38,267 nt of DNA from positions 1-38,267 of IMG/VR virus record IMGVR_UViG_3300020438_000109; one strand, 5' to 3'. Below, piece by piece: positions 3,301 through 24,515 of the stretch (position 1 is the stretch's first letter; each line of letters opens with the position of its first letter). This stretch comes from a virus. The notes under the pieces were generated by a model, which saw only the letters and a program-made list of their open reading frames with translations, ran no database searches and had not been told where the DNA came from. The position numbers and the translations under genes are program-made.

Positions 3301-3499
3301 CGGTGACTTATTCATTCTTGACGAACCTGGGACGGCTTTGGATGAAGACAATATGTCGGGCTTTATTCAGATTTTGGAACTAATTAAGGTATATTTCAAG
3401 AATGTCTTGTTGATCTCGCACCTTGATTCTCTTAAGGATTGTGTTGACATGCAAATCGTAATTGAAAAGAAAGACGGATACGCAAGAGTAAATCAATAG
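332..3499 (+). CDS. Fused SbcD-SbcC (Mre11-Rad50; T4 gp47-gp46) recombination nuclease
   Basis: This 1055-residue protein combines both subunits of the phage recombination exonuclease, which resects DNA ends for recombination-dependent replication and helps degrade host DNA. Residues 1 to about 365 are a calcineurin-type metallophosphatase: D10-x-H12, GD at 45-46, GNHD at 80-83, H150 and GDIH at 183-186. Residues about 366-1055 are an SMC/Rad50 ATPase: Walker A G400KNFSGKS407, long coiled coil, zinc-hook cysteines C728-x-x-C731 with an extra C732, ABC signature SGAEK at 967-971, Walker B LFILDEP at 993-999 and an H-loop (LLISHLD). The start is GTG at 332 behind TAGGAG. In T4 and most bacteria the two halves are separate genes, nuclease first, so this looks like an in-frame fusion in the same order. 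No frameshift is seen and all key motifs are intact. Confidence 0.93.
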   Translation: MSIKIAHVSDIHVRKLKYHKEYRAVFEQLYKKLKEEKPDIIVNTGDTFHTKLDLSPEAIRMMSELFVGLADIAPYHMILGNHDMNLKNSGRLDAISPIVDYLEHPNIHFHKYASVVEVADGIDLHVLSIVDPENWKKDLPEDRVNIALYHGSVVGSVTDTGWMMTHGDISLDELEKYDYAMLGDIHKTDQKVDNEGRAKYPGSLVQQNHGESNDKGYLIWDIENKNTWSTRHVSLTNPKPFITIELTRKGRMPKNISIPLGARLRLVSNNNLPLDIMRRAVDIAKHRFKPESISFLNRASGDRGSVEGLTDGLRTENLRDIDVQEELIDEYLVEYQVPAETMEKVCELNKKYNKIVEDNEDVSRNINWKLIDFEFDNLFNYGEGNSVNFEELSGIVGIFGKNFSGKSSIIDGVLWTLFNTTSKNERKNLNVINQNKEECRGIVKIQIDDRIFTVERRAKKYTKRLKGEETQEAKTDLNFEVFDPVMGEVVSLNGTTRTQTDANIRKQFGTLEDFSVSSLSSQHGALAFIDEGSTRRKEIIAKFLDLELFEQKFKLAKEDSVDLKGALKRLETKNFDEDIQDTAAMLSTTKVNLTTQRDKCDNSKDELTLLASSCVEIQAKIDSIPAEIIDIVNITKQIRHKENNITSLMLKVGKDEETLKIKQGLYERVIEFIENFELDKHRKTKQQIDSKKELLSEHESQIEHLNGEYDYILKKEKLLQEHKYDPDCSYCCENEFVKEAHHAVLNKTKIEREQHAVLSFVREIGQQIEKLEPVHVEAMLDRFDKMKESKNVVSATIADLNLEIERTKNSILTAKNELSELTILRDEYEENKEAIENLETLVTELNNCHYSIEQTKKNIVTCDKSTLELVKLLGSQEQKLLNLKEQKQEYQDLQTEFAAYDLYMRCMHPNGIAYDVIKKKIPVINSEIAKVLANIVDFEVFFEATGNKFDISIKHPQYDERPIEMASGAEKSLSAMAIRLALLGVSSLPTGDLFILDEPGTALDEDNMSGFIQILELIKVYFKNVLLISHLDSLKDCVDMQIVIEKKDGYARVNQ

Positions 3500-3510
3500 G
3501 AGATTGCAAA

Positions 3511-3867
3511 GTGAAAATTAGTAAGTCGCAACTTAAACAAATTATCAAGGAAGAGATAAAAGAGGCTATTAACTTCGACGCCCCCGCGGGTCAAAGCGTT
3601 TACGAACCAGAGCCCGAACCAGAGAAGTACCCGGATCAGTCAGAGCCTTATGATCCCTTCTACAACGACGATGTTGAGGTTGATAAGGCGAAACTTGCCG
3701 CAGATATGAAAAACGCATTGAAATATTTTAGCGCAGATCAGATTGCGAGTTCACTTGAGAGCGGTCTTGAGTATATGGGGCGCCCCGGCAAAGAAGCTTT
3801 CATTGAGATTTCTCAGATCTTTGCTGAACTTGGCAAACCACATCACGGAAAGCATCAAGATAACTAA
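3511..3867 (+). CDS. Small acidic protein with N-terminal LKQIIKEE tag, 118 aa
   Basis: It starts at GTG 3511 behind TAGGAG (3497-3502), which overlaps the stop of the nuclease gene. The N-terminus MKISKSQLKQIIKEEIKEAI is a charged helix that recurs almost unchanged in the proteins starting at 5217 and 7435. An acidic, proline-rich linker (residues about 25-50, EPEPEPEKYPDQSEPYDP) follows, then a helical C-terminal half with Ala and Glu. I recognise no enzyme motif. The I-K-E sequence in the tag fits the (I/L)xE cleavage rule of T4-type prohead protease, so a packaged internal head protein is my inference, not an established function. Confidence 0.7.
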   Translation: MKISKSQLKQIIKEEIKEAINFDAPAGQSVYEPEPEPEKYPDQSEPYDPFYNDDVEVDKAKLAADMKNALKYFSADQIASSLESGLEYMGRPGKEAFIEISQIFAELGKPHHGKHQDN

Positions 3868-3899
3868 GTATGAATGGATTGGCAACATAGGAGATTATA

Positions 3900-4280
3900 A
3901 TGGCTAGAAGAAAAAACACAAAAAGAATTGACCCTCGTTACTTTTTGAGCGAGACGACAAATAGAGATGAACTTGAAGAAGGTTTCTCCGGCGGAGATTA
4001 CTCCGACGCAGACAGCACCGCCCGCGCAATGGGAAGAAGTGACTCACAGGCAAGTACATCGTCAGGTGCCAGAGTCCCAGAAAAGTATCAAGCTCTTGCC
4101 GATAAACTGATTCAACAGGGCGGTGATGCTCGCAAAGTAGAACAGACGATTAGTGCTTGTCAAGAAGAGGGACTTAGGGGAGAAAAGTTGGCTTTTGAAA
4201 AGTGTATGGTACGAAAAGACACTTCTAGTAGGTATGCGATGATGGACTTGGGAATGATCCCACAGCAACAAGGTAGCTAA
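3900..4280 (+). CDS. Unknown small hydrophilic protein, 126 aa
   Basis: The ATG at 3900 has a good ribosome-binding site (AGGAGATT at 3890-3897). The N-terminus is basic (MARRKNTKRIDPRYFL), followed by an acidic segment with LEEG and a Ser/Gly/Asp-rich linker to about residue 60. The second half is helical and contains two cysteines spaced by about 16 residues (SACQEEG...FEKCMV), which could pair or bind a metal. No family was recognised. It sits in a run of small genes between the nuclease and terminase. The LSE and LEE sequences near the N-terminus are possible prohead-protease sites, but that is speculative. Confidence 0.65.
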   Translation: MARRKNTKRIDPRYFLSETTNRDELEEGFSGGDYSDADSTARAMGRSDSQASTSSGARVPEKYQALADKLIQQGGDARKVEQTISACQEEGLRGEKLAFEKCMVRKDTSSRYAMMDLGMIPQQQGS

Positions 4281-4282
4281 AA

Positions 4283-4873
4283 GTGAAGAAACTATTTGAA
4301 AATTGGCGAAAGCACACAAACGAAGCAGCATACGAACCCGGCCGTGCTGTCCCCCGGTACCGTACCGGCGAAGAACGCCCGCAACCCGAGATGGCTGAAA
4401 AAGAAGCGATGGAAGACTTGGCTGAAAAGTTTGGTGTTGAAGTTGAATTTAGTACCACCAAAGAGGGCACCCCCACCGCTATTGTAACTTTTGAAGATGG
4501 CGAGCAAATGGGATATAGTGATGAAGAAGAGATGTATCAAGACTTAGCGCAGAGGCGCGAAATGAACGAAGGCGCCGAATTAAAGATCCCAGTCGAGAGA
4601 TACGATACTTTTAAAAGAAAAATCGAACAGTGGGGTATGTTGTTCAATAAATTTACCGGATATACAAGAGACTTGAATCATCCGGAGTTTGATCAAAAAA
4701 CTGAAGGCCGCAGAATAGTTAGAATGGCTCATGAGCTTGAGAGTCAATTTAGAAAGATTATGAAAGAATTTGATTTTGACGCTAAATCTTATGAAGATGA
4801 GCGTTTCGCACAGCGTAAAAAGCTCGATAGGTTTGATGGAGATCATAAATTTTTCACGGAAGAAGAATCTTGA
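4283..4873 (+). CDS. Unknown protein with LFENWRKHTNEA N-terminus, 196 aa
   Basis: GTG start at 4283, only 2 nt after the preceding stop; the ribosome-binding stretch AAGG lies inside the end of the previous gene. The short helical N-terminus (MKKLFENWRKHTNEAAYEPG) resembles in layout the T4 capsid-targeting peptide, which has about ten residues, aromatic and basic, followed by an acidic residue and Ala. The rest is a charged alpha/beta region containing FGVEVEFSTTKEGTPTAIVTF and a helical C-terminus with many acidic and aromatic residues. I do not recognise a domain. Packaging into the head is an inference from the N-terminus alone. Confidence 0.65.
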   Translation: MKKLFENWRKHTNEAAYEPGRAVPRYRTGEERPQPEMAEKEAMEDLAEKFGVEVEFSTTKEGTPTAIVTFEDGEQMGYSDEEEMYQDLAQRREMNEGAELKIPVERYDTFKRKIEQWGMLFNKFTGYTRDLNHPEFDQKTEGRRIVRMAHELESQFRKIMKEFDFDAKSYEDERFAQRKKLDRFDGDHKFFTEEES

Positions 4874-4914
4874 GAAGAAAAAAATGACTTAGTTAAAGTC
4901 AAAAGGAAACAAAA

Positions 4915-5220
4915 ATGAATTGGTTAAAAACATTATGGGGTCAGATAGTCAACAAGACATCTGCTGCTACACAATTGCAAGAAGCTATCCCAGTTGAGGT
5001 AGAAGAGAGTGAATCAGTAATAGAGATATTCGAAAGAATTTGTACAGAGGCCGGCCTTGGTAGTAAATTTACCGAAGGCCTAGGCGCTAGTGAGAAATTT
5101 GTTGAATGGTACGATGGGCCCGCCGAGGAATCTGCCATCCGTGAATCTCTCGCAGAATTTAAAACTGTTCATCCCAGCATCAATGCAAAGATGACTTCAG
5201 CGATGGGGGTTTCGAAATGA
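4915..5220 (+). CDS. Unknown small acidic protein, 101 aa
   Basis: ATG at 4915 behind AAAGGAAA. The sequence starts MNWLKTLWGQIVNKTSAATQ, an amphipathic segment with two tryptophans that could lie on a membrane, followed by a strongly acidic stretch (EVEESESVIEIFERI) and a predicted helical C-terminus. Its stop overlaps the next start by 4 nt (ATGA at 5217-5220), so the two are translationally coupled. No family recognised. Confidence 0.6.
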   Translation: MNWLKTLWGQIVNKTSAATQLQEAIPVEVEESESVIEIFERICTEAGLGSKFTEGLGASEKFVEWYDGPAEESAIRESLAEFKTVHPSINAKMTSAMGVSK

Positions 5221-5504
5221 GAATCACTAAATTACAACTTAAAAAAATTATCAGTGAAGAAGTTGACGCGCTTGTAGAGAGTGACCAAAATATAAATGAA
5301 GGTGTCGAACAGCTTACTCCTGAAAATATAGAATTGCTATTTAATGTTATGAAAAAAATGGCCACTGAGCCGGCAATTGTCTCCGCACTCGGCGCCGGCG
5401 GTATGCTGGCAGCAATCGAACAGATTAAAGGTAGAATAAAAGCTTCACTCGGTTCTGAAATAACTGAACCAACCACAACATCTGAGCCCGCAGGAATAGA
5501 ATAG
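5217..5504 (+). CDS. Small protein with N-terminal LKKIISEE tag, 95 aa
   Basis: It begins within the ATGA overlap with the preceding gene. The first 15 residues, MRITKLQLKKIISEE, match the tag of the 3511 and 7435 proteins position by position (basic-I-S/T-K-x-x-L-K-x-I-I-x-E-E). An acidic stretch follows, then a central hydrophobic, Gly/Ala-rich helix (about residues 48-75, AIVSALGAGGMLAAIEQI) and a Thr/Pro-rich tail. The hydrophobic helix could insert into a membrane. No known family; an internal head protein cleaved after IISE is one possibility. Confidence 0.65.
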   Translation: MRITKLQLKKIISEEVDALVESDQNINEGVEQLTPENIELLFNVMKKMATEPAIVSALGAGGMLAAIEQIKGRIKASLGSEITEPTTTSEPAGIE

Positions 5505-5513
5505 GAAGTAACA

Positions 5514-5714
5514 ATGATGGCAAAAGCACAGGCATTCTTGGATACTTGGATTTCAAAGCTTACTTCGCGTAAGCTTATGGTCTGGCTTACTGCAACCGGC
5601 CTTACATTAGCCGGCCACGTCACTAGCGAAGATTGGGTAATTATTTCAGCAATCTATATTGGCGGTCAAACTGTCATTGATGGTATCAGTAGGTTGCGAG
5701 GTTACAATGGTTAG
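5514..5714 (+). CDS. Holin-like small membrane protein, 66 aa
   Basis: The start is ATG 5514 (or ATG 5517) behind AGGAAG. After an amphipathic N-terminal helix, two hydrophobic segments are visible: about residues 22-39 (MVWLTATGLTLAGHV) and 42-60 (WVIISAIYIGGQTVIDGI). A basic turn and tail follow (RLRGYNG). Two short membrane spans in a protein of this size, directly upstream of a spanin-like gene, suggest a class II-type holin that permeabilises the inner membrane at lysis. The role is inferred from size, topology and neighbour, not from sequence identity. No endolysin gene is present in the window. Confidence 0.55.
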   Translation: MMAKAQAFLDTWISKLTSRKLMVWLTATGLTLAGHVTSEDWVIISAIYIGGQTVIDGISRLRGYNG

Positions 5715-6090
5715 AACCCGATTGCTGGAGTTTGCGCTCAAGAACTGGAAAGCGATATTAATTGTATTGCTCAGTCTTGTTGTTACTATGAAAAGTCGAC
5801 ATGATTACAGTCTTATGCAAAAAGCATACGAAACACAAAACGAATCGTATCAAGCTCAAATCGATGGATTGAAAGAAATCCACAAACAAGAGATACGAGA
5901 AAAACAATTACTAATGGAGAACCACATGGAATCAATTGCAGCCATCGAAGAGGAATATGAAAACGCCCTCCAGATGATTAAGCAGTTAAGAGAAGATAAA
6001 CAAGGTCAGTATAAAAACAAGTTTAATCACGATCGAGAACAACTGATTAAAGATATAGAAAGTAAATTCGGGATTCAATATGCTCCTTAA
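5707..6090 (+). CDS. Membrane-anchored coiled-coil protein, inner-spanin-like, 127 aa
   Basis: I chose ATG 5707, which overlaps the end of the holin-like gene by 8 nt and has AGGTTGCGAGG upstream. The frame is open further upstream, but that part only shadows the previous gene. Residues about 13-28 form one membrane anchor (WKAILIVLLSLVVTM) with positive charges before it. The remaining hundred residues are a continuous Glu/Lys/Gln coiled coil. An N-terminal anchor with a periplasmic coiled coil is the layout of Rz-type inner spanins, which join the inner and outer membranes during lysis. The overlap with a secreted partner gene at 6080 supports this; sequence identity was not tested. Confidence 0.55.
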   Translation: MVRTRLLEFALKNWKAILIVLLSLVVTMKSRHDYSLMQKAYETQNESYQAQIDGLKEIHKQEIREKQLLMENHMESIAAIEEEYENALQMIKQLREDKQGQYKNKFNHDREQLIKDIESKFGIQYAP

Positions 6091-6502
6091 TCTACTTTTA
6101 ATGCTTACCCTTACCGCGAACGCTACCGAGCCAGCGAAATTTACGATACTTCAATATAAGGCACCAGCACCATTTGAGGGTGTCCTGTTTGATAGCAATG
6201 CGATGTCAAAAATTTTAGCTGACTATGATTTGGCGACATACTCATGCGATACAAAAACTAAATATCAACTGGATATTCAAGCCGAAGAGTACGATTACAA
6301 ATTAAAAGATCTGTCAATAGAACATAAAGCCTTGACTGATGAATACGATTTGTTTATAATGCAGAAGGACAAGGAAATTGATTTTCTAGCAAGTGCCCTA
6401 AAAAAAACATCACCCCAGTACAAATGGCTGTACTTTGCTGGGGGGATTGTGCTCGGAACAGCCGCTTCATATGGAGCATACAAAACCCTAAATGAAAGAT
6501 AA
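6080..6502 (+). CDS. Secreted coiled-coil protein with C-terminal membrane segment, 140 aa
   Basis: ATG 6080 overlaps the spanin-like gene by 11 nt. Residues 1-16 are a hydrophobic signal peptide ending ANATEP, with likely cleavage after ANA. No cysteine follows, so it is not a lipoprotein. A conserved-looking stretch, KAPAPFEGVLFD, comes next, then an acidic coiled-coil region (about 55-105) and a hydrophobic C-terminal segment (about 114-135, WLYFAGGIVLGTAASYGAY). The overlap with an inner-spanin-like gene makes it a candidate lysis partner, but an outer spanin should carry a lipobox, which is missing. It may instead be an unrelated exported protein. Confidence 0.55.
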   Translation: MLLNLLLMLTLTANATEPAKFTILQYKAPAPFEGVLFDSNAMSKILADYDLATYSCDTKTKYQLDIQAEEYDYKLKDLSIEHKALTDEYDLFIMQKDKEIDFLASALKKTSPQYKWLYFAGGIVLGTAASYGAYKTLNER

Positions 6503-6869
6503 AAGTTTAAATCAGATAGCTGCAATAGAAAAAGCCATAAAAGAAAAGTATGGCGATGAGGCTATAGCAAACCCCAAAGCGTTTTGGGACGAAGAAAAAG
6601 AAAAAGACTATCTTAAGCAAATGAAAGAGTTTTATTCAAAAACTTCAAAAAATTTAGAGCGTGAAGATAAAATTGACGTAAATGGTATAAAGGTTACAAA
6701 AAAACTACTTAATAAAGAACCTCGCAAAAATTGTCCTGTCTGCGGAAAGTTTCCAAAGAAATCTATGGATGATGTCTGTTTAGTCAAATTTGAATGTTGC
6801 AATACTTGTTACGTCAAATTTGTTGAAGATAGAGAAGAGCGCTGGGAACAAGGTTGGAGACCAAATTAA
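6492..6869 (+). CDS. Zinc-ribbon protein of unknown role, 125 aa
   Basis: ATG 6492 overlaps the previous gene by 11 nt. The N-terminal 75 residues are helical and highly charged. The C-terminal half holds a cysteine cluster: CPVCGKFPKK, then a C in DDVC, then CCNTCYVKF. This could supply four zinc ligands (CxxC plus CxxC) in a ribbon of about 35 residues, followed by an acidic, tryptophan-containing tail. Such ribbons bind nucleic acid or proteins. Its place a few hundred bases before the terminase gene gives no firm clue. Confidence 0.6.
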   Translation: MKDKSLNQIAAIEKAIKEKYGDEAIANPKAFWDEEKEKDYLKQMKEFYSKTSKNLEREDKIDVNGIKVTKKLLNKEPRKNCPVCGKFPKKSMDDVCLVKFECCNTCYVKFVEDREERWEQGWRPN

Positions 6870-6884
6870 AAAAGGATAAATATA

Positions 6885-7433
6885 ATGGCAACAGTTTACG
6901 AAATAGTACAAGGCCTGTCACAAGCCGCAGCAAATGCCTACGACGGTGCACTTGACGAAAATGAAGAACCTATCAAAACAGGACTTAATAGGGAAAATGG
7001 TGATCCGATTCTTGACAGAAGAGTTATCGATGGCTTTAAAGTCAAATTTTCCGGAAACATTATGCACCTGACTTATATGTCAGAAGTTCAATTGAAAAAG
7101 GTTCACCAAAATGGATTTGAAGACGAAGTAGTATCTACGATGACTGACGTTGTAAAATTTTTAAAGAAAGAATATCGCAAGATTATGGGCGAAACCGTCT
7201 CATTAACACAGGTGGAAGAGCCCGATATAAAAATTGAAAGCTCTTCGAATGTTCGTTCCTGGTTAACAGCAGTCCAGTCTTTCACGATTGGTGGTTTAAA
7301 CGAAGATATGAACAATGATAATTCAGACAACAAACCCCCAACAGAATCTTGGCAAGATTTTATGTCACAAGGTGGTTGGAATGGGTCTGGAGGAAAACGT
7401 CCACAAAACGATACCAGAAAAAAGGAATCGTAA
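6885..7433 (+). CDS. Unknown protein upstream of terminase, 182 aa
   Basis: ATG 6885 with AAAAGGA 12 nt upstream. Residues 1-130 look like a compact alpha/beta domain: a helix with YEIVQGLSQAAANAYDGA, a strand region FKVKFSGNIMHLTYMSEVQL, and a helix STMTDVVKFLKKEYRKIMG. The last 45 residues are a low-complexity Asn/Gly/Pro/Lys tail. I do not recognise it. In T4 the small terminase (gp16) lies immediately upstream of gp17. This and the following gene occupy that place, but neither shows features I can assign to gp16. Confidence 0.6.
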   Translation: MATVYEIVQGLSQAAANAYDGALDENEEPIKTGLNRENGDPILDRRVIDGFKVKFSGNIMHLTYMSEVQLKKVHQNGFEDEVVSTMTDVVKFLKKEYRKIMGETVSLTQVEEPDIKIESSSNVRSWLTAVQSFTIGGLNEDMNNDNSDNKPPTESWQDFMSQGGWNGSGGKRPQNDTRKKES

Positions 7434-7434
7434 G

Positions 7435-7920
7435 ATGAACATTAGCACTCAAAAACTTAAGCAAATTATCATTGAAGAGTACGTGAAAGAAGAAGGTATA
7501 GACGAAAGCCAAGCTGCTGAAGATCTTTTAAGGCAACTCATTGGGGATGAAGAATATAATCGCCGTCGCGCTTTAGAAAATCCTGACTCTCGTGGTGGAG
7601 ACACTGCAGCAATGGATAAACCTAATAAAGCGGCTGAAACCATGCCTATGCCTAGTGATCAAACGAACCTAGTCAAGGCTACTGTCGATGGCGTATACGC
7701 TTTGGTGTCCGATATGGATCCAGAGGACGTGCAAGAAATCTTTCAAATTGTGTTTGAGAGATTGCCCGGTGTTGAAATGATGAGCCCGGGCGATGAAGAT
7801 TACCCAGAGCAACCTCCTACTGAATATGTCCGCGGAGCCGGCGGTCGACCAAAAATTAGCAGCTTTGGCCTTGACGAAATTAAACAGTTAATTAGAAAAG
7901 TTTTAGCTGAGAGTGTATGA
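7435..7920 (+). CDS. LKQIIIEE-tagged protein next to terminase, 161 aa
   Basis: I place the start at ATG 7435, with AAAGGAATCG just upstream and the shared tag at the very N-terminus (MNISTQKLKQIIIEEYVKEE). The frame is open to 7315, but that overlaps the previous gene. After the tag there are acidic helices, a Pro/Met-rich linker (about 60-75), a helical segment DPEDVQEIFQIVFERLPG and an acidic Pro-rich linker. A second tag-like helix lies at the very C-terminus (GLDEIKQLIRKVLAES). Its stop overlaps the terminase start by 4 nt. By position it could be the small terminase; by its tag it could be a head-targeted protein. Neither is proven. Confidence 0.65.
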   Translation: MNISTQKLKQIIIEEYVKEEGIDESQAAEDLLRQLIGDEEYNRRRALENPDSRGGDTAAMDKPNKAAETMPMPSDQTNLVKATVDGVYALVSDMDPEDVQEIFQIVFERLPGVEMMSPGDEDYPEQPPTEYVRGAGGRPKISSFGLDEIKQLIRKVLAESV

Positions 7921-9500
7921 ATTTTGAACTTACCAAAAAACAAAAGTTTCAAGAAATTTTAAAGTGCGGTAAAGACCCAACATACTTCTTGAAAAATTAT
8001 GCCCGTATATCTCACCCGATGCACGGGTTAATTCTTTTTGATACTTATGATTTTCAAGATGTTTTGTTGAGTGATTTCAATGATTACCGATTTAATATTA
8101 TCTTGAAAGCAAGACAGTTGGGAATCTCAACGATCACCGCCGGTTATATTTCTTGGCTAATGTTGTTTCATAAAGATAAATCTATTCTTGTTATGGCAAC
8201 CAAGTTTGCTACCGCTGGTAACTTGGTAAAAAAAGTTAAAAGTATTATGAAGAACTTACCGGAGTGGATCCGAATCGCAACTATTTCAGTCGATAACCGA
8301 ACTTCATTTGAACTGTCAAATGGTTCGTCTATTAAGGCCACATCAACTTCTGGAGACGCCGGCCGTTCTGAAGCATTGTCCCTGCTGGTTCTTGATGAGG
8401 CTGCACACATTGAAGGGTTAGATGAGTTGTGGACCGGATTGTATCCTACGCTTTCGACTGGTGGGCGCTGTATTGCATTGTCTACTCCAAATGGCGTTGG
8501 TAACTGGTTTCATAAAAACTGTGTTGATGCCGAAAGTGGCACTAATAATTTTAACCTAACGACCTTGTCTTGGGATGTCCACCCAGATCGCGATGCTGAG
8601 TGGTACAAAAAAGAAACTAAAAACATGTCTAAACGCCAGATAGCGCAAGAGCTTGAATGCAACTTCAATACTTCAGGCGAGACAGTCATTGACCCTGAAT
8701 GTATGGACTGGTTACTGGCTAATGTGCGCGAACCAAAATACAGAACAGGCTTTGACAGAAATTTTTGGATCTGGGAAGAGTATGATCCTTCGTGCAACTA
8801 TCTTATGGTGGCCGACGTAGCTAGGGGTGATGGCGCTGATTACTCTACCTTTCATATGATCAAGCTGGAAACTTTAGAAATAGTTGGAGAGTATCAAGGT
8901 AAACCAACACTAGATATGTACGCTAATATATTAAACCAAGTTGGGAGAGAGTTTGGTAATGCAATGTTGGTTGTAGAGAATAACAACGTTGGATATTCTG
9001 TATTGGATAAATTGTTGGATGCGGATTACCCCAACCTCTATCACTCAATTAAATCGACACACGAATACATTGAACAATATCAAGCAGAAATCAGAAACTC
9101 TGCTGTGCCTGGATTTACTACCTCTTCCAAGACTAGACCTCTTATAGTAGCTAAATTAGAAGAGTTTATTAGAAATAAACTAATTACCATATATTCTTCT
9201 CGCACTATTAACGAGATGAAGACCTTTATTTGGAGGAATGGAAAGCCACAAGCAATGAAGGGTTATCACGATGACCTTATTATGGCTTTGGCAATTGCTT
9301 GCTGGGTTAGAGATACAGCGATACAAAGTAGCTCAAGAGATTTAAATTATCAAAGAGCATTTGCTGACGCTATCATGACCTCGCGAACAACCATGAATAC
9401 TCAAATAAAAGGACAAATAGGATACAAAGAAAAAGAATCTTTTGATAAACTAAGTGAAGCTAAAAAGATATATGAACAATTCAATTGGATTATAAAGTGA
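7917..9500 (+). CDS. terL: Terminase large subunit (gp17-like)
   Basis: This is the ATPase and nuclease that pumps DNA into the prohead through the portal and cuts the concatemer. The N-terminal ATPase shows a Walker A-type loop RQLGIST (66-72), Walker B LLVLDEA (156-162) and the coupling motif STPNG (189-193). The C-terminal nuclease domain shows the acidic metal ligands of an RNase H-like fold: D300 in MVADVARGDGADYS, E354 in VVENNN, and D452/D453 in GYHDDLIMALA. At 527 residues it is a little shorter than T4 gp17 (610). The start overlaps the preceding stop by 4 nt, and the portal gene follows 8 nt after its end. Confidence 0.96.
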   Translation: MNFELTKKQKFQEILKCGKDPTYFLKNYARISHPMHGLILFDTYDFQDVLLSDFNDYRFNIILKARQLGISTITAGYISWLMLFHKDKSILVMATKFATAGNLVKKVKSIMKNLPEWIRIATISVDNRTSFELSNGSSIKATSTSGDAGRSEALSLLVLDEAAHIEGLDELWTGLYPTLSTGGRCIALSTPNGVGNWFHKNCVDAESGTNNFNLTTLSWDVHPDRDAEWYKKETKNMSKRQIAQELECNFNTSGETVIDPECMDWLLANVREPKYRTGFDRNFWIWEEYDPSCNYLMVADVARGDGADYSTFHMIKLETLEIVGEYQGKPTLDMYANILNQVGREFGNAMLVVENNNVGYSVLDKLLDADYPNLYHSIKSTHEYIEQYQAEIRNSAVPGFTTSSKTRPLIVAKLEEFIRNKLITIYSSRTINEMKTFIWRNGKPQAMKGYHDDLIMALAIACWVRDTAIQSSSRDLNYQRAFADAIMTSRTTMNTQIKGQIGYKEKESFDKLSEAKKIYEQFNWIIK

Positions 9501-9508
9501 GACAATAA

Positions 9509-11503
9509 ATGGCCAAAAACGATAAAAACCCCAGAAACCAGCAATCTACGTTATTCAAATCTTTAACACGATTATTCTCTGGACCTATAATTAATTACCG
9601 CTCTCAGTCAGGGCGCCGAATTCGCAGACAACACCTTGATAAATTCTCTGCCAGATTTAAAACAGCATCAGGGCAACAGTTTAAGAAGACTCATTATAGT
9701 CCGCTTGACCAGCTAGGCTCTAACGCAATCGCCAACCAAAGAAGGTCTGAACGATATGTAGACTTTGATCAGATGGAGTATACTCCTGAGATTGCCTCCA
9801 CTTTAGATATATACGCAGACGAGATGACGACATATTCTGACTTAAGGCCGATGCTTAATATTAAATGCCCCAACGAAGAGTTAAGAGCGGTGCTGGCCAT
9901 ATTATATGAAAACATACTCAATGTTGAATATAACTTATTTGGTTGGTCACGCACGATGTGTAAGTACGGAGACTTTATGTTATATCTTGACATTGATGAT
10001 AATTACGGCGTTCAGTCCGTAATCGCCCTGCCTCCTGCAGAGGTTGAAAGATTAGAAGGTGAAGATGCTACCAATCCAAATTATGTCCAATACCAATGGA
10101 ACTCTGGTGGATTAACTTTTGAAAATTGGCAAGTTGCGCATTTTCGTGTTTTAGGCAATGATAAGTATGCTCCATATGGAACTTCTATTCTTGAGCCTGC
10201 CCGCCGCATTTGGAGACAACTTACCCTCATGGAGGATGCTATGATGGCTTATCGTGTTGTCCGTTCATCTGAGCGTCGAGTATTCAAGATTGATGTTGGC
10301 GCTGTACCTCCGAATGAAGTTGAACAGTATATGCAAAAAGTTGTAACCCAACTTAAGCGCAACTCTGTCGTAGACCCAGATACTGGCCGAGTAGATCTTA
10401 GATACAATCCAATGAGCATTGAAGAAGATTATTATATCCCAGTCCGTGCTGGCTCACAAACCGACATTGTATCGCTAGCTGGTGCTCAAAACATCACAGC
10501 CATAGATGATATTAAATATTTGCGTGATAAGTTGTTCTCAGCACTAAAGATTCCCCAGTCATATCTTACTATGGGTGAAGGTGCACAGGAAGATAAAACC
10601 ACATTAGCTCAAAAAGATATTCGCTTTGCTAGAACTATTCAAAGATTACAAAGAGTTGTTATTTCTGAGCTTGAAAAGATTGGCATTATCCACCTCTATA
10701 CTCTTGGTTTCAGAGGTGACGATCTACTTTCTTTTAAATTATCACTCAACAACCCTTCCAAGATTGCAGAAATTCAAGAGATTGAGCACTGGAAAGCTAA
10801 ATTTGATATTGCTGCTTCTGCTACGGAAGGTTACTTTTCTCGTCGCTGGGTAGCCGATAATATCTTTGGGCTTAACCACGAAGAATTCATTCGTAACCAA
10901 AGAGAAATGTATTACGATCGTAAACATGACGCAGCCTTACAGCAGGTCGCAGAGTCCGCAGCTACTGGCGAAACTGCCGGCGCGCTTGGCGGCGATCTGG
11001 GAGGTGCCCTAGATGCCGATCTGGGCGATGATCTTGGTCTTGGTGGCGAAGGTGGTCCTGAAGAGATACCGGCCGCTGACGTTGATCCACCTGATGATGC
11101 AGGCGCTGCCGGCGCAGATGACTCACCGCTGTTAGCAATCCCTCCTGGCTCTCGCCAGTCCAAGAGGTTGGGCCCTCGTGATAAGAAAGTAAGCACCTAT
11201 GAGAAAGGTTCGTATACAAGAAAGGACGGCCAAAATGACAAACGCCCTCAAGGGAAGCGCAGTCAGGCATATTCCTCTATAGCGACCCCGGAGACCAATA
11301 CTATGCGTACCAACAATCCGGGCTATCCCGAATTAAGATCGCTAGGCAGAGGCATTTTCACAGAAGAAACATCTATATATTCTGATAGAGAGCTTACAGA
11401 AGAGCAGAAAATTTTAGAGATGAACAATTCGGTTAAATCTTTAATCGATGTTTTAGAGAAAAAAGACACATTATTGACGGAGCAAAAAGATGAAGCACAA
11501 TAA
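9509..11503 (+). CDS. 20: Portal vertex protein (gp20-like)
   Basis: A dodecameric portal through which DNA enters and leaves the head, and the seed for prohead assembly. The 664-residue sequence has the gp20 layout: a basic N-terminal region, the segment around MEYTPEIASTLDIYADE, a conserved stretch with RRIWRQLTLMEDAMMAYRVV and RSSERRVF, and the clip/stem part LRDKLFSALKIPQSYL followed by AQKDIRFARTIQRLQ. From about residue 487 to 545 there is an acidic Gly/Asp/Ala-rich insert, then a basic Ser/Lys stretch and a charged tail, so the C-terminus is longer and less ordered than in T4 (524 aa). It overlaps the next gene by 14 nt. Confidence 0.93.
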   Translation: MAKNDKNPRNQQSTLFKSLTRLFSGPIINYRSQSGRRIRRQHLDKFSARFKTASGQQFKKTHYSPLDQLGSNAIANQRRSERYVDFDQMEYTPEIASTLDIYADEMTTYSDLRPMLNIKCPNEELRAVLAILYENILNVEYNLFGWSRTMCKYGDFMLYLDIDDNYGVQSVIALPPAEVERLEGEDATNPNYVQYQWNSGGLTFENWQVAHFRVLGNDKYAPYGTSILEPARRIWRQLTLMEDAMMAYRVVRSSERRVFKIDVGAVPPNEVEQYMQKVVTQLKRNSVVDPDTGRVDLRYNPMSIEEDYYIPVRAGSQTDIVSLAGAQNITAIDDIKYLRDKLFSALKIPQSYLTMGEGAQEDKTTLAQKDIRFARTIQRLQRVVISELEKIGIIHLYTLGFRGDDLLSFKLSLNNPSKIAEIQEIEHWKAKFDIAASATEGYFSRRWVADNIFGLNHEEFIRNQREMYYDRKHDAALQQVAESAATGETAGALGGDLGGALDADLGDDLGLGGEGGPEEIPAADVDPPDDAGAAGADDSPLLAIPPGSRQSKRLGPRDKKVSTYEKGSYTRKDGQNDKRPQGKRSQAYSSIATPETNTMRTNNPGYPELRSLGRGIFTEETSIYSDRELTEEQKILEMNNSVKSLIDVLEKKDTLLTEQKDEAQ

Positions 11504-12290
11504 AAAAAGAAATACAGCACTCGTTTTCGAATCACTGGTTAAAGAGATTACTGCTGCAATCATTAAAAATGATAAAGAAAGAAAAACAATTGCTGTTTCT
11601 CTTGTAAAGAAACACTTTAAACCAGGGACTTATTTGCGCAGACATTTAGATTGTTACAAGTCGCTTTATGAAAATCAAGACTTGCCAATTGAGACTTGCG
11701 AAAAAATACTAAAAGAAGCTAATCTTTCCGCAAGAATGATTGACCCACAAGGTTTATTTAAACAACAAACAGAACTTATTAACGACATTAATAAAGATTT
11801 AGATCCCACCGTGTTTAATAACTTTGTTCCAAACTATAAAACTTTGGCAACCATTGATCAGATATTCAATAGCAGGACTACTCCAAAAACTAAAGTTATG
11901 TTGGAAAACAAAATTATAGAAAATATGTCCAAGAACACTGAAATGAAGAACTCTTCTGATGTTGACAACTTAACACTAACAACATTCATTAATAAATTTA
12001 ATGAGAAATATTCCGATGAACTTCTTGAAGAGCAAAAAGAATTGTTAAATTACTACATTACATCTTTCGTTGATAACGCAGTCGAACTCAAAATGTTTCT
12101 AAACGAAGAGTTGGGCCGCCTGCAACAAGAGATTAAACAAATGCCAGAAGATAAATTAGAAGGTAAGAAAGAGATGATAAGTGAAAAGCTGAACTCCTTT
12201 CAAGCTACCAACATCGACGACAATACCTTATTGGTAGTTTTGAAAACCCAACAACTTGTAAAGGAACTTAACGATGGCAGTAATCATTAA
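11490..12290 (+). CDS. Unknown helical protein after the portal gene, 266 aa
   Basis: ATG 11490 lies inside the end of the portal gene, with GGAG upstream. The protein is predicted almost all helical and is rich in Lys, Glu, Asn and Leu. The first 60 residues are basic (MKHNKKRNTALVFESLVKEI) and the C-terminal third is acidic. I see no motif. In T4 the genes between portal and protease (67 and 68) encode prohead core proteins; this gene takes the same place but is larger, and I cannot claim homology. It may be a head-assembly factor. Confidence 0.7.
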   Translation: MKHNKKRNTALVFESLVKEITAAIIKNDKERKTIAVSLVKKHFKPGTYLRRHLDCYKSLYENQDLPIETCEKILKEANLSARMIDPQGLFKQQTELINDINKDLDPTVFNNFVPNYKTLATIDQIFNSRTTPKTKVMLENKIIENMSKNTEMKNSSDVDNLTLTTFINKFNEKYSDELLEEQKELLNYYITSFVDNAVELKMFLNEELGRLQQEIKQMPEDKLEGKKEMISEKLNSFQATNIDDNTLLVVLKTQQLVKELNDGSNH

Positions 12291-12813
12291 GGTTGGAAAA
12301 AAGTCTAACCAAAAGAAAGTCAGATTAGAATTAGATTTGCGCCGCTCCATGAATGGAGATTTAATGATTTTTGATCACGGCGATATAGACATTATTCTTT
12401 CTCCTGATAAGAAAAAGATTGTTGCTTTTCCCAAAGAGACGATGACAGACTTGGTTTACGGCGCGCAAAACAGATTATTTTCTCATTTGCGAAAACGAGG
12501 CTTGGTAATACCCGAGAGTATTCAAGCCGGTTCGTTTTACGGAGCCTTCGAAGCCACACTACAAGAATCTACAGACCCTGATGCATCTTCAGCTAAATTA
12601 GCTTTAATTAATATCTCCAATTTTATTGATGAAGAAAGACCTTACTTCGAACAAGTAGAGGCGATTGTGTCAATGGACGATGAACATTTAATTGATCCTG
12701 ATAAAGAATACTCAACTGAGCTTGGCGAAGTACCACAATCATCTGAGAAAGGTTCGATCCGCCCGGGATACATTAGGGATCCTTACGCCTACAACTATAT
12801 GTACACGATTTGA
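12274..12813 (+). CDS. Unknown protein between portal and protease, 179 aa
   Basis: It overlaps the preceding gene by 17 nt. The N-terminus is beta-rich and basic (MAVIIKVGKKSNQKKVRLEL) with a short strand pair (DLMIFDHGDIDIILSPDKKKIVAFP). The middle is helical and the end is acidic, then aromatic (PYAYNYMYTI). No family was recognised. Its place in the portal-protease interval, shared with prohead core genes in T4, makes a head-morphogenesis role plausible. Confidence 0.68.
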   Translation: MAVIIKVGKKSNQKKVRLELDLRRSMNGDLMIFDHGDIDIILSPDKKKIVAFPKETMTDLVYGAQNRLFSHLRKRGLVIPESIQAGSFYGAFEATLQESTDPDASSAKLALINISNFIDEERPYFEQVEAIVSMDDEHLIDPDKEYSTELGEVPQSSEKGSIRPGYIRDPYAYNYMYTI

Positions 12814-12820
12814 GGACTTG

Positions 12821-13171
12821 ATGGAATTAATTACATTTATACTTTGCGCATATGGTTTGACACAGATAGTAGTATATGGAAAGATATTTAATCGAATAAG
12901 ACCCACCAAAGGCAAAGCCGGCGAACTGTTCCGCTGCCCAATGTGTATGGGCTTTCATGTCGGTTGGTTTTTATTACTACTTTCTCCTTTCACAGAACTA
13001 TTTAACTTTGACGTAACGGTAACCAACTTCTTTCTTATGGGTTGGTTATCTTCGGGAACATCATATGTTTTTAACATGATATTTGGAGATGAGGGAATAA
13101 AATATGAATACAAACAGAGAAACCCAGATACCTGCCACTTGGACAAGCAAGTGGATGTTGCAGCCAGTTAG
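12821..13171 (+). CDS. DUF1360-like membrane protein, 116 aa
   Basis: I chose ATG 12821, 7 nt after the preceding stop, because the product then begins with a membrane segment (MELITFILCAYGLTQIVVYG). Two or three more hydrophobic segments follow (about 47-60 and 66-88). Between the first and second lies FRCPMCMGFHVGWF with C39-x-x-C42, a cysteine pair before a glycine-tryptophan motif, characteristic of DUF1360 membrane proteins. The gene sits directly before the prohead protease. T4 starts prohead assembly at the inner membrane with the membrane protein gp40, so an analogous helper role is an attractive but untested idea. Confidence 0.68.
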   Translation: MELITFILCAYGLTQIVVYGKIFNRIRPTKGKAGELFRCPMCMGFHVGWFLLLLSPFTELFNFDVTVTNFFLMGWLSSGTSYVFNMIFGDEGIKYEYKQRNPDTCHLDKQVDVAAS

Positions 13172-13195
13172 ACACTGCTGCAAAGGGAGTTAGCT

Positions 13196-13801
13196 ATGGG
13201 TAAAAAACTATTAAGAGAATTTTACGAACTTTGCGAAGGCGGTGTTTGTCAGGACTTACTCACTGAAGCAGAAAAGAAATTTGTTTCCGAAGGAGGTATG
13301 ATCCTTTCCGGCATTATGCAGATGTGCGAAACACTGAATGGTAATGGCCGTGTATACACTGAAAGTGTCTTGAAAAGAGAAGTTGGTAAATATCAAAAAC
13401 TTGTAGAACAACACCGCGCTCTGGGTGAATTAGATCACCCAGATAAAGTAGAAGTTTCATTAGAAAAAGTTTCCCACAAAGTTAATGAAATTTGGATGGA
13501 TGGAAATAAAGTAATGGGCAAGATTCAGGTCCTTGAAACGCCAGCCGGCAAGACGCTTCGTGCTCTTGTTGAGGGGGGTTGTAGTATCGGTATATCTTCA
13601 CGAGGTACTGGCTCTGTAATGGAACAAGGTGGGAAGTCCATCGTTCAAGAAGATTTTGAATTAGTTTGCTTTGATGTTGTATCAGAGCCTTCTACCCCCG
13701 GTGCTTTTATGATGAGAGAGGCTAAAGATTTTGGCCTCAAAGAGGGCAAACGCTCTAACGTTAGCAAACTTATAGACGAGGTATTAAGTAATGAAGTATG
13801 A
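13196..13801 (+). CDS. 21: Prohead core protease (gp21-like)
   Basis: A serine protease that, once the prohead is built, cleaves capsid and core proteins after (L/I)xE and then itself, making room for DNA. The 201-residue protein matches the usual gp21 length (212 in T4) and shows LNGNGRVYTESVLKRE (47-62), the catalytic-histidine region GELDHP (H81) and the catalytic-serine region CSIGISSRGTG (S134/S135), followed by FDVVSEPSTPGAF. ATG 13196 follows AAAGGGAG. The short N-terminus MGKKLLREFYELCEGG contains LRE and is a possible self-cleavage site. It overlaps the next gene by 11 nt. Confidence 0.94.
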   Translation: MGKKLLREFYELCEGGVCQDLLTEAEKKFVSEGGMILSGIMQMCETLNGNGRVYTESVLKREVGKYQKLVEQHRALGELDHPDKVEVSLEKVSHKVNEIWMDGNKVMGKIQVLETPAGKTLRALVEGGCSIGISSRGTGSVMEQGGKSIVQEDFELVCFDVVSEPSTPGAFMMREAKDFGLKEGKRSNVSKLIDEVLSNEV

Positions 13802-14381
13802 AAATTATGGTTTAATTAAAGAAGGATGGGATAAGTTTGTCGCGAACCCTTCTTATCTAGAGGAAGCTTTGGACGATTATCTAAAACAGCAGGCTGCCCC
13901 TAGCGGCACATTCGAAAAGTTAATGGACGCTTTTAAAAGTAAAGTTCGAACTGGCGCCGGCGCCGTGGCAATGGTAGATTTTATTAACGATCTGCCGACT
14001 ACTGGAGTTAGCTTTGATGTATTTATTAATTCGCCTGTTTCCTCTGCGATGTTGACAATGGTTATAATGAGTTATTTCAAGATTAGCAAAAAGCAAGTTA
14101 TAGATAAAGTAAAAGATCAAGGCCCTGAAGCAGCACGTACCGCGGCCCTTAAAACTGTCGATGTTAGTAGAGCCGCCTGGGAGAAGACAGTGGATCACTT
14201 AGATAAAGCAGCCAATGATCCGCGCGCACCTGAAGGAATGAAAAAAGTTCTTAATGGAATGGGAGCGCTTATTAATCCTCAAGATCCGAAAGATTTGGAA
14301 ACTTTAGACAATGAAGAAGAAGTGGCAAAACGAGTTAAGCAGCTTACTTTCAAAACAGCTGATCCGATTGAGCCAACATAA
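13791..14381 (+). CDS. Unknown protein after the protease gene, 196 aa
   Basis: The ATG at 13791 lies in the end of the protease gene; the local AGGTATTAAGTA is a weak ribosome-binding site, so coupling is likely. The N-terminus has GLIKEGWDKFVANPSYLEEAL. A central hydrophobic stretch runs at about residues 80-100 (SPVSSAMLTMVIMSYFKI), and the remainder is helical with Ala, Lys and Asp. The hydrophobic stretch may be buried in the fold rather than a membrane span. No family was recognised. Co-transcription with protease suggests a prohead core or internal protein, and I-K-E-G fits the protease rule. Confidence 0.65.
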   Translation: MKYENYGLIKEGWDKFVANPSYLEEALDDYLKQQAAPSGTFEKLMDAFKSKVRTGAGAVAMVDFINDLPTTGVSFDVFINSPVSSAMLTMVIMSYFKISKKQVIDKVKDQGPEAARTAALKTVDVSRAAWEKTVDHLDKAANDPRAPEGMKKVLNGMGALINPQDPKDLETLDNEEEVAKRVKQLTFKTADPIEPT

Positions 14382-14390
14382 GAGAATATA

Positions 14391-14783
14391 ATGAAGAAAT
14401 CTGAACTAAAGAAAATAATAAAACCACTCGTTAAAGAGTGTATACAAGAGGTTCTACTTGAGGACGGCCTTTTGTCTAATGTAGTCTCAGAAGTTGTTAA
14501 AGGCGTAACGAACGTCCCCATCACCGAACAAAGACAACAACCACTGAAGCAAATTGCCAGAGAGCCGAGTAATGTAAACCTGAAAGAGCAGCGCCAAAAG
14601 TTGATGGGAGCCATCAATAAAGATGCTTACAACGGGATAGATTTATTTGAGGGTACTACTCCTGCACCTTCGCAACGCGAACAGTCTGCTGGCAGTGTTG
14701 ACTTAGGAGATCCACGAGATTCTGGTGTAGATATCAGCTCCCTGATTGGAACATCGACAAAAATTTGGGAAAAATTAAAGTAG
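14391..14783 (+). CDS. Small protein with LKKIIKPLVKE N-terminus, 130 aa
   Basis: The product begins MKKSELKKIIKPLVKECIQE, a diverged version of the helical tag seen at 3511, 5217 and 7435: same L-K-K-I-I core, with Pro-Leu-Val in place of the first acidic residue. A hydrophobic helix (about 24-42) follows, then a Gln/Arg-rich linker and a disordered Ser/Gly/Asp-rich part ending in a short helix (TSTKIWEKLK). No known domain. The position just after protease and before bS21 suits a small internal or core protein, as an inference. Confidence 0.62.
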   Translation: MKKSELKKIIKPLVKECIQEVLLEDGLLSNVVSEVVKGVTNVPITEQRQQPLKQIAREPSNVNLKEQRQKLMGAINKDAYNGIDLFEGTTPAPSQREQSAGSVDLGDPRDSGVDISSLIGTSTKIWEKLK

Positions 14784-16219: not shown

Positions 16220-16966
16220 ATGGCATACAACAATATATCTGGTTCTGTTCTCCTTCCAAACGAACTATTAAAAGTAGAAGGGATATCTTCCGGAATAGTT
16301 TCGGGAAATTTAAGCACCTCTGATGGCGCAGAGGTTATTAATGTCCCGCGGGTGGCCAACGCAACAAATAATTCAATAATTACCAATGTTGGTGGTAATG
16401 CGAATACTTTAACTTGTGAAACCAATCTGACCTTTGACGGGGACACGTTAGGTATTACGGGTGAGATTACTGCTAGTACTGGCATATCAGCATCTTTTTT
16501 TATGGGAGATGGAAGCCGACTTACTGGAATTAGTGGTGGTGGCGGAGGTAATGCAAATGCTCAGGGCCCCCTCGGTGCACTGCAGTTTCGTAATGATGCA
16601 GATGCAGGAACAATCAGTGGTTCAGTTAATATTATATTCAACAACAACATACTTCAACTTGCTGGCGGTTTGAAGTTGAACAGAAGAAATGTCTCGTCTA
16701 CTGTAACTGCTTCTTTGACAGATTACTATATCGGTACCAACACAACCAACGGGATACTGTCTATTAGGTTACCAGATGCAGCCAACTTGCTGAACGGTCA
16801 AACATATGTTGTAAAAGATGAAGCTGGCACTGCCAACTCAAATAATGTGACAATATTGGCATCAGGATCACAAACGATCGACGGTCAAAATTCAGTAATT
16901 TTGGAATCACCTTTTGCATCCATCCAGCTTTATTGTAACGGGACCAATAAATACTTTATTTACTAG
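16220..16966 (+). CDS. Fibre-like structural protein 2, 248 aa
   Basis: Strong ribosome-binding site (AAAGGAGG) before ATG 16220. The N-terminus MAYNNISGSVLLPNEL shares MAYN with the three fibre-like proteins downstream. The middle includes ASFFMGDGSRLTGISGGGGG, a segment common in phage fibre shafts, followed by GPLGALQFRND. The C-terminal domain (LPDAANLLNGQTYVVKDEAG, then ASGSQTIDGQNSVILESPFA and LYCNGTNKYFIY) is the clearest example of the domain shared by the array. Role inferred: fibre or decoration subunit. Confidence 0.7.
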   Translation: MAYNNISGSVLLPNELLKVEGISSGIVSGNLSTSDGAEVINVPRVANATNNSIITNVGGNANTLTCETNLTFDGDTLGITGEITASTGISASFFMGDGSRLTGISGGGGGNANAQGPLGALQFRNDADAGTISGSVNIIFNNNILQLAGGLKLNRRNVSSTVTASLTDYYIGTNTTNGILSIRLPDAANLLNGQTYVVKDEAGTANSNNVTILASGSQTIDGQNSVILESPFASIQLYCNGTNKYFIY

Positions 16967-22703: not shown

Positions 22704-24515
22704 ATGTCTAGCATTATCGAAAGATTGACCGAAGGAGTTGTCAATCGTGATATGCGTGCCGAAGGTCATGCTCTTCTTTCCAAGTGGGAGAAGACAGGAC
22801 TTCTTGAGGGTCTCGAAAAAGAGCACACCCGCAAGAATATGGCACGATTACTTGAAAACCAAGCAAAGGAACTACTTCGTGAGAGTTCCTCGATGGCTGG
22901 TGGCGATGTCGAAGGATTCGCTGCAGTCGCATTCCCAATTGTACGACGCGTTTTCGCTGGCTTGATTGCCAACGATCTTGTCGCCGTCCAACCTATGAGT
23001 CTCCCCTCGGGCCTCATTTTCTTCCTTGACTTCACCGTCGATGGAGATATTCCTTCCCCTGCTAAGCCTGGCTACGCCGCAAACTCATCGTTTTACGGTG
23101 GTGGTCGAGTTGGTTCGCAGATCACCGGTGGTATCAACTTAACTGGTGATAACGCTGAAGCTGGTCCTTACGGACTGAACAATGGTTACGCTTCGCCTAC
23201 TGGCTCCGTTAAGGTTGCCGCGGCTTCGTTTATCCTTGTTGCTTCAGGTACCGCAGGTGCTACCCCCGGTGCAGGTGCATTGCCACTTAGCGCCAAAAAT
23301 CAAGCTACACTTGATAGCCTCACTAAATACGACCCAGATCTTTCTGGTGCTATTGTTGCGGTTGTTGAGCAAACCGGTGCTGCTGATTGGGGTCAACTTG
23401 CTGTTGACGACTTGATCACTATTGGTTTACAAGATAGCTTGTCTGCAACGACAGTTGATAAGAACGTTAAGATTATTCGTCGCTTGTCTTCGATCTCTTC
23501 TGGTTCTACTACCACAGATTCGTCTAACGTTTCTTGGAAGTGTACTCTTGTCCTTGCACAGCGTTCTGGCTCTGTTAAGCCAGACGATGGTGTGGTTGGT
23601 CGCTCTTTCATGAGTACCGTTACCGGAGCATCGACTGAGTTTGGCTTTAGCTTCCAGATTGATGATGACCTTGTCACTGGTGGAGCGCTTGGATCAGTTA
23701 TTGGTGATCCTACTTGGGGCTTGGAAGGAAATGATAACATTCCTGAAATCAACATCAAAGTCGATTCTGTCGCTGTTACCGCAGCTACTAAGAAGCTCAA
23801 GGCTAAGTGGACTCCGGAGTTAGGTCAAGACCTTAACGCCTACCACAACCTTGATGCAGAAGTTGAGTTGACTTCGATCCTTTCGGAGCAAATTGCTCTT
23901 GAGATCGATCGCGAGATTCTTGAAGATCTCATCAAAGGCGCGCAGGCTGCTACCTACTACTGGTCTCGCTCCCCAGGTCTCTTCGTGAACCGTGAAACTG
24001 GTAAAGAAATTGGCGCATCTTCGGCTGCTCCTGACTTCACTGGTACTGTGAGCGAATGGTATGAAACTCTCGTTGAAACCATCAACGATGTTTCGGCACA
24101 AATTCACCGTAAGACACTTCGCGGTGGCGCAAACTTCATCGTTTGCTCTCCAGAAGTTGCTAACGTCCTTGAATTCACTGCTGGCTTCCGTGCTTCCGTC
24201 ACTGCTGACGATGAGCGTGGTTCCATTGGTGCGGTCAAGGTCGGTGCTCTTACTAAGAAGTTCGATGTTTACGTCGATCCATACTTCTTGCGTAATGTCA
24301 TCCTTGTTGGCCGTCGCGGTACCTCTTTCCTTGAAAGCGGTTATGTGTACGCACCATACGTACCACTCCAGACTACACCTACAATCTTCGGACCAGAAGA
24401 CTTCGTACCACGTAAGGGCGTCATGACCCGCTACGCGAAGAAGATGGTTCGTCCAGATATGTACGGTCTTGTCGTTGTGCGCGGTCTCCTTGGAGAAGCT
24501 GGATCTACTGTTTAA
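22704..24515 (+). CDS. 23: Major capsid protein (gp23-like)
   Basis: This HK97-fold subunit forms the head shell. The 603-residue sequence shows the gp23 N-terminal region TGLLEGLEKEHTRKNMARLL (31-50) and ENQAKELLRE, then AFPIVRRVFAGLIANDLVAVQPMSLPSGLIF, close in pattern to T4 gp23. The protease rule (L/I)xE points to cleavage after E60 in LLRE, near the T4 site after residue 65. The C-terminal part contains DLNAYHNLDAEVELTSILSE, FIVCSPEVANVLE and GRRGTSFLESGYVYAPYVPL, usual for T4-type capsids. It is longer than T4 gp23 (521 aa), with extra Gly/Ala/Ser-rich sequence around residues 130-200. A strong terminator follows. Confidence 0.96.
   Translation: MSSIIERLTEGVVNRDMRAEGHALLSKWEKTGLLEGLEKEHTRKNMARLLENQAKELLRESSSMAGGDVEGFAAVAFPIVRRVFAGLIANDLVAVQPMSLPSGLIFFLDFTVDGDIPSPAKPGYAANSSFYGGGRVGSQITGGINLTGDNAEAGPYGLNNGYASPTGSVKVAAASFILVASGTAGATPGAGALPLSAKNQATLDSLTKYDPDLSGAIVAVVEQTGAADWGQLAVDDLITIGLQDSLSATTVDKNVKIIRRLSSISSGSTTTDSSNVSWKCTLVLAQRSGSVKPDDGVVGRSFMSTVTGASTEFGFSFQIDDDLVTGGALGSVIGDPTWGLEGNDNIPEINIKVDSVAVTAATKKLKAKWTPELGQDLNAYHNLDAEVELTSILSEQIALEIDREILEDLIKGAQAATYYWSRSPGLFVNRETGKEIGASSAAPDFTGTVSEWYETLVETINDVSAQIHRKTLRGGANFIVCSPEVANVLEFTAGFRASVTADDERGSIGAVKVGALTKKFDVYVDPYFLRNVILVGRRGTSFLESGYVYAPYVPLQTTPTIFGPEDFVPRKGVMTRYAKKMVRPDMYGLVVVRGLLGEAGSTV

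Follow-up and report, generated by a model that had tools for sequence, protein, structure and literature searches.

The virus record IMGVR_UViG_3300020438_000109 of IMG/VR, analysed here over its whole length of 38,267 bases (hereafter the window), is a fragment of a T4-like phage with a gp23-type capsid protein (PF07068) and a gp21-type prohead protease (PF03420). Within 4.4 kb of the window (3511-7920), five genes bear one of three common N-termini, which we call tag A (genes at 3511, 5217 and 7435), tag B (4283) and tag C (3900). The three tags are quite probably capsid-targeting sequences (CTS) of the T4 kind, carried by a modular set of internal head proteins. The occurrence, in uncultivated T4 relatives, of hundreds of otherwise unrelated small proteins with swappable tags suggests a mix-and-match system for loading the head. 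In such a system the N-terminal tag, be it A, B or C, would dock the protein in the scaffold core during prohead assembly, and the S77 protease would then cut after the terminal L/I-x-E of the tag. In bodies built as chains of modules, further cuts would fall between the modules, and the mature cargo would stay in the head with the DNA.

Three tags in the window and across the T4-like group

An earlier sequence-only reading of this DNA proposed that four scattered small proteins, at 3511, 5217, 7435 and 14391, share one N-terminal helix acting as a capsid-targeting tag. We found that this holds for the first three. A tag A profile (37 rows, with the window rows removed) searched against the six frames of the window recovered 5217 (E 2.9e-8), 3511 (E 1.1e-7) and 7435 (E 3.1e-6), while the next best frame reached only 0.078. 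The three pairs formed by their N-terminal 18-mers also have the top three scores among the 39 window genes (43, 34 and 21) in an ungapped comparison run with the stated start codons. For comparison, the best pair among an equal number of random internal 18-mers scored 16.8 on average, reached at least 28 in 11 of 400 draws and never exceeded 35. A test of this kind recovers the IPII/IPIII pair in T4 and misses the tags of Flavobacterium phage immuto, whose register shifts. The protein at 14391 scored -14 to -21 against the tag A proteins in ungapped register, and it was rejected as a member of the set because the profile gives it E 0.86. It is kept after the protease in relatives, starts with MxKxELKK and may be a core protein of its own family. 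Nor is there a single tag, since 4283 carries B and 3900 carries C.

The claim that one N-terminal peptide sits on unrelated bodies was borne out well beyond the window. In 310 records of this T4-like group (3.73 Mb, alike bodies removed) tags A, B and C precede about 340, 75 and 32 distinct bodies, respectively; these are counts of bodies rather than of independent events, as many loci overlap. The 14391-like family, which made up 10 of 151 rows in a tag A set, was excluded from these counts and likewise from the later site and swap counts. An all-against-all comparison of N-termini in four long records gave 11-17 pairs scoring at least 35 per record, whereas internal segments gave 0-0.3; it revealed tags A and B, and tag C was found next. 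Regular expressions for the three tags marked 8 to 14 genes per record in the same four records, on one strand in each, and no gene when these records were read backwards; one of the 8 matches in G001 (at 24410) resembles a chance match. A profile search over relatives, as the sequence-only reading had advised, found 4 to 11 tag A matches each (E<=1) in 14 of 14 long relatives, besides the three window genes. In 20 contigs preselected for the exact tag, every contig had 3 to 12 matches at E<=0.01. Every one of 150 distinct tag A proteins picked by regular expression from 160 records lies on the head-gene strand, a strand that could be assigned because loci were oriented on the terminase or the protease. 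Tagged genes concentrate before the terminase, though some lie elsewhere: in G003 a second cluster occupies 2.6-5.6 kb, and G005 has some at scattered places. As a separate observation, short proteins of G001 (loci L162 and L163) at 31385, 36922, 41720 and 42504 start with MKVGDL.

A bacterial or prophage origin of the tag was considered and rejected: a 15-residue tag pattern had no exact match in contigs of 84,980 bacterial and archaeal species, whereas viral contigs yielded at least 120 matching stretches. Among 50,697 phage records the sole tag A match was immuto (E 8, not significant alone), and tags B and C had none. In immuto (L160), a cultured phage isolated on Flavobacterium sp. LMO8, unrelated proteins at 7295, 7881 and 18189, and at 8807, 22632 and 23633, bear an MKKSxLxxIIKEAL-like or a second common start (MENFDLKKFLVENKLT). 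No clear tag was seen among the 21 genes read of Microcystis phage Mel-JY01.

The targeting idea presumed a gp21-type protease, and the window does encode one. We also looked for the tag in phages lacking this enzyme. Of 20 long tag-bearing contigs, 12 encode an S77 protease; among the other eight, six are without terminase and portal and two break off shortly after the portal. Thus no contig combines an intact head module with absence of the protease.

Predicted cutting site

The T4 protease cuts after L/I-x-E, and in T4 IPIII the processing residues are 8 and 10, with D at position 10 blocking processing (both from the available portion of PMC9026906). The sequence-only reading had noted the I-x-E within the tag A helix as the cut. 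Sites that follow the T4 rule are indeed present, and E14 of I12-x-E14 is kept in 92 of 93 tag A proteins, a set that includes at least one likely chance open reading frame (ORF; L130:6963). However, I12-x-E14 as the sole cut was rejected because homology between differently tagged bodies begins later, at a second site. The likelier cut, predicted from sequence, is this second L/I/V/M-x-E at the tag end, most often at residue 21-22. In the 93 proteins the P1 position falls on residue 22 in 25 and on residue 21 in 16, where about 2.4 each are expected (0 of 2000 shuffles). There are 51 hydrophobic-x-E pairs where permutation of the columns gives 29.6 (0 of 3000), and 188 against 124.3 expected (0 of 1000) in a stricter set of 314. 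Where a P3 residue was scored (n=322), it is L in 167, I in 78, V in 41, M in 31 and F in 5.

The other tags end in the same way. The site count of 75/75 in tag B is circular because the regular expression that defined these bodies already demanded it; when tag B was picked without requiring a site, one was found at a single offset in 63 of 80 against 3.1. In tag C there are 29 hydrophobic-x-E pairs against 14.9 (0 of 2000), and 28 of the 32 proteins have at least one. The capsid protein of the group follows the same rule as the tags: its conserved site reads LL(R/K)E in six of the seven listed sequences and IVSE in immuto.

Could the tags be docking helices for another partner, for example the portal, the terminase or tail parts, that are never cut and whose acidic end is merely a helix cap? 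The two structure models, of 4283 and 7435, show tags B and A, respectively, as helices, and the cluster stands directly before the terminase, where 7435 is a conserved gene that retains its tag in relatives. Nevertheless, we regard this explanation as unlikely. The excess in tag A is restricted to E two residues after a hydrophobic one, D at that position showing none; three unlike tags share one end rule, and the same boundary divides internal modules, as described below.

Tag swaps and putative cargo modules

Tags were found exchanged at the predicted site or one residue beyond it. A body of about 300 residues stands behind tag A in L185 and behind tag C in L138 (L185:2643 versus L138:5629, 47% over 297 residues), and the similarity begins at residue 1 of both predicted mature bodies. 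An A/B swap relates L120:69 to L096:2647 (91% over 54 residues, from residue 2 of both), and the same body appears with tag A in L167:6776 (90% over 58 residues to L096:2647).

Beyond what had been proposed before, some of the cargo appears polyprotein-like, with predicted internal sites. Many bodies consist of chained modules that turn up in other proteins after an internal site of this form. We matched tagged bodies against internal places of other proteins, excluding those with a tag-like upstream part. The residue before the internal module is E in 36 of 64 cases (10.5% at random places), and hydrophobic-x-E lies exactly at the boundary in 27 of 64 (2.4% at random places). Boundaries in non-cargo proteins from the same phages have no such excess (223 of 2478, 9.0%, against 9.6%). 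We also followed 16 module motifs chosen by eye, for which the background of a site before the motif is 16.7%; one of them, GCG (4/66), is too loose. VSSEKQRR and TPEN are each preceded by a site in 17 of 17 contexts, PHSAHHVV in all 8 (four times after tag A, once after tag B and three times internally), HYHDMGG in 14 of 15 and GEGSMA in 5 of 7.

Three window proteins illustrate this arrangement. In 4283, whose predicted sites were read directly off the sequence, tag B is followed by module 1, the motif EMNE96 and module 2, and in relatives module 1 precedes three other modules. Its AlphaFold model, of modest confidence (predicted local distance difference test score, pLDDT, 65.1), shows module 1 as folded (about 35-95) and module 2 as helical, with a break between them at 96-99 (pLDDT<50); Foldseek returned no match for it at E<=0.001. 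The body of 5217 is a GVEQLTPEN module that recurs internally and behind other tags. The protein at 7435 (model with mean pLDDT 69.9 and predicted template modelling score 0.29), which starts at an ATG within a longer ORF opening at 7315, terminates in KVLAESV; beyond that point relatives carry an extra HYHDMGG module, which in L122:5191 stands alone behind tag A.

Taken further, these genes may follow a cargo-loading code, a proposal that we make tentatively and slightly on the side of doubt. Any of the three tags would be joined to one or several effector modules, each behind a head protease site, so that a single gene would yield several injected proteins and new cargo would arise by joining a module behind L/I-x-E.

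Several points weigh against the targeting interpretation. We infer docking, cutting, presence in the virion and injection from the gene sequences. A hydrophobic-x-E is lacking from the tested P1 window in 124 of 340 tag A bodies, P1' is E in 55 of 322, unlike the A of T4 IPII and IPIII, and two tag types occur in only 2 of 66 co-terminal families. Not every module motif holds up (GEGNLT 0/2, NPWAIC 5/7). When cargo boundaries were defined by alignment starts on both sides, the site was present in 79 of 408 (19.4%) against 17.6%, a weak signal; alignment starts of this kind are ragged.

DNA level and nature of the bodies

The sequence-only reading also described alike DNA around CTTAAxxAAATTATC, which we confirmed in all three tag A genes (3511, 5217 and 7435), and suggested tag shuffling. 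The codon for Leu8 is CTT in 91 of 131 tag A genes against a background of 26% (chi2 133), and one 18-base upstream stretch precedes up to five different bodies. These features indicate that the tags are related by descent at the DNA level too, as would fit recombination at the tag as the means of shuffling. The tag does change bodies, and the common DNA may still aid this process. The same features would also be expected if the tag were a DNA-level cassette end whose start region is kept by recombination while the peptide has no role. We consider this very improbable. The third codon position is the most variable in tag A (0.46 versus 0.24 and 0.16), while in the body the three are near equal (0.70-0.74), and therefore the peptide is under selection; besides, tags B and C differ in sequence yet share the layout.

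Pfam, PHROGs and fold searches said little about the bodies. In 94 tagged proteins Pfam found 15 families, each in one member. P-loop kinase-like protein makes up the body in at least one tag B case (AAA_33, E 1.4e-11). The motif DFDxT, which we take to be that of HAD phosphatases, occurs in two tag B bodies (L181:2397 and L186:4040); Pfam gave no support for the former and only a sub-cut-off DUF2608 for the latter. Tag B was seen on proteins with DFDxT or P-loop motifs at L181:2397, L186:4040 and L177:8733-9749, and it is possible that these are packaged enzymes.

Another explanation is that the tagged proteins belong to the core or scaffold and, in the manner of T4 gp22 and gp67, are cleaved and for the most part lost, rather than being retained and injected as cargo. 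Multiple sites per protein would suit such parts, and fragments of the T4 core proteins mostly exit the head (PMC9026906, available portion). The bodies vary between related records, though, and the kinase-like body also argues for cargo, so we give this alternative little credence.

Relation to known systems

A conserved targeting peptide on otherwise diverse internal proteins is already established for T-even phages, where only the CTS is conserved (PMC3012670, in the sections available). T4 IPI, IPII and IPIII likewise have a short N-terminal peptide on unlike small proteins that ends in a gp21 site (MKTYQEFIAE before A in IPII and IPIII). The features of a T4-type CTS that we found here are a common peptide on unrelated proteins, an L/I-x-E end (216 of 340 in tag A) and a gp21-type protease. 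Here, however, the tag sequences are others, although tag B looks nearest the T4 CTS as judged by eye, three interchangeable tags coexist in one group, modules are chained behind one tag, and there are 5 to 14 tagged genes per record, against the three internal proteins plus Alt given for T4 in the available part of PMC9026906. T4 gp22, gp67 and gp68 also undergo several cuts per chain (same source); those are conserved core proteins, whereas the present modules recur in other proteins. Phages SPN3US and phiKZ have N-terminal propeptides on head proteins, two of just 20 and 24 residues, that are removed by the prohead protease, but the portion of PMC10052503 at hand describes no common tag on unrelated bodies. 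Polyvalent proteins of phages and conjugative elements hold several effectors per chain freed by proteolysis (PMC5512222, in part); they bring their own peptidase domain, whereas Pfam found none among the 94 tagged proteins. As far as we found in the accessible portions of open-licence PubMed Central papers, the tag sequences, the swapping of three tags at the site and the modular cargo with internal sites are new.

The window phage and its other genes

Among named phages, Flavobacterium phage immuto, Microcystis phage Mel-JY01 and Rhodothermus phage RM378 have the capsid proteins closest to that of the window; the top eight matches also include two unannotated uncultured phage records. Because the RM378 capsid is among the nearest, and RM378 is the sole reference genome named for the Far-T4 phages in the available text of PMC4360716, the window phage is probably a Far-T4 phage, as placed by its capsid sequence.

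Table 1. Tagged and head genes of the window (slash, predicted cut; nucleotide position of the site in brackets)
Coordinates	Strand	Feature	Remarks
3511..3867	+	Tag A protein, 118 aa, GTG start	Predicted cut IKE18/A (3564); IKE14/E alternative
3900..4280	+	Tag C protein, 126 aa, MARRKNTKRIDPRYFLSETTNRDELEE/GFSGGD	Predicted cut LEE27/G (3980); tag C fronts other bodies elsewhere
4283..4873	+	Tag B protein, 196 aa, two putative cargo modules	Predicted tag end TNE14/A (4324); predicted internal site MNE96/G (4570)
5217..5504	+	Tag A protein, 95 aa	Predicted sites LVE21/S (5279), INE28/G (5300)
7435..7920	+	Tag A protein, 161 aa	Predicted sites IDE24/S (7506) and, near the C-terminus, LAE159/SV (7911)
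7917..9500	+	Large terminase, head-module marker	Tag cluster just upstream
13196..13801	+	gp21-type prohead protease (Peptidase_S77), presumed cutter	PF03420 E 8.3e-30; phrog_207 E 7.4e-56
14391..14783	+	Separate conserved protein after the protease, not of the tag set	Profile E 0.86
22704..24515	+	Major capsid protein gp23	PF07068 E 3.9e-74; conserved propeptide site LLRE60/S

Other genes of the window drew our attention. Inside the tagged cluster, at 5514-6502, a small membrane protein precedes two ORFs that overlap each other and have hydrophobic stretches near their N-termini; together they may form a lysis set. Four large fibre-like proteins at 16220, 17080, 18745 and 19910 have a common start near MAYN/MAYK, probably a common fibre attachment end. 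A single ORF of 1055 residues at 332-3499 resembles, from motifs read by eye, a fusion of a nuclease with an SMC-type ATPase (T4 gp47 plus gp46).

Biological and practical meaning

With the tags, hundreds of small orphan genes in marine phages gain a probable role at one stroke. A simple rule, a tag plus L/I-x-E, lists the proteins that such phages may inject and predicts their exact mature ends. If the internal sites are cut, the head protease would free the parts of polyproteins and thereby deliver several proteins from one chain. These natural interchangeable tags could also help to direct selected proteins into phage heads, a use to which the T4 tag is already put (PMC9026906, available portion).

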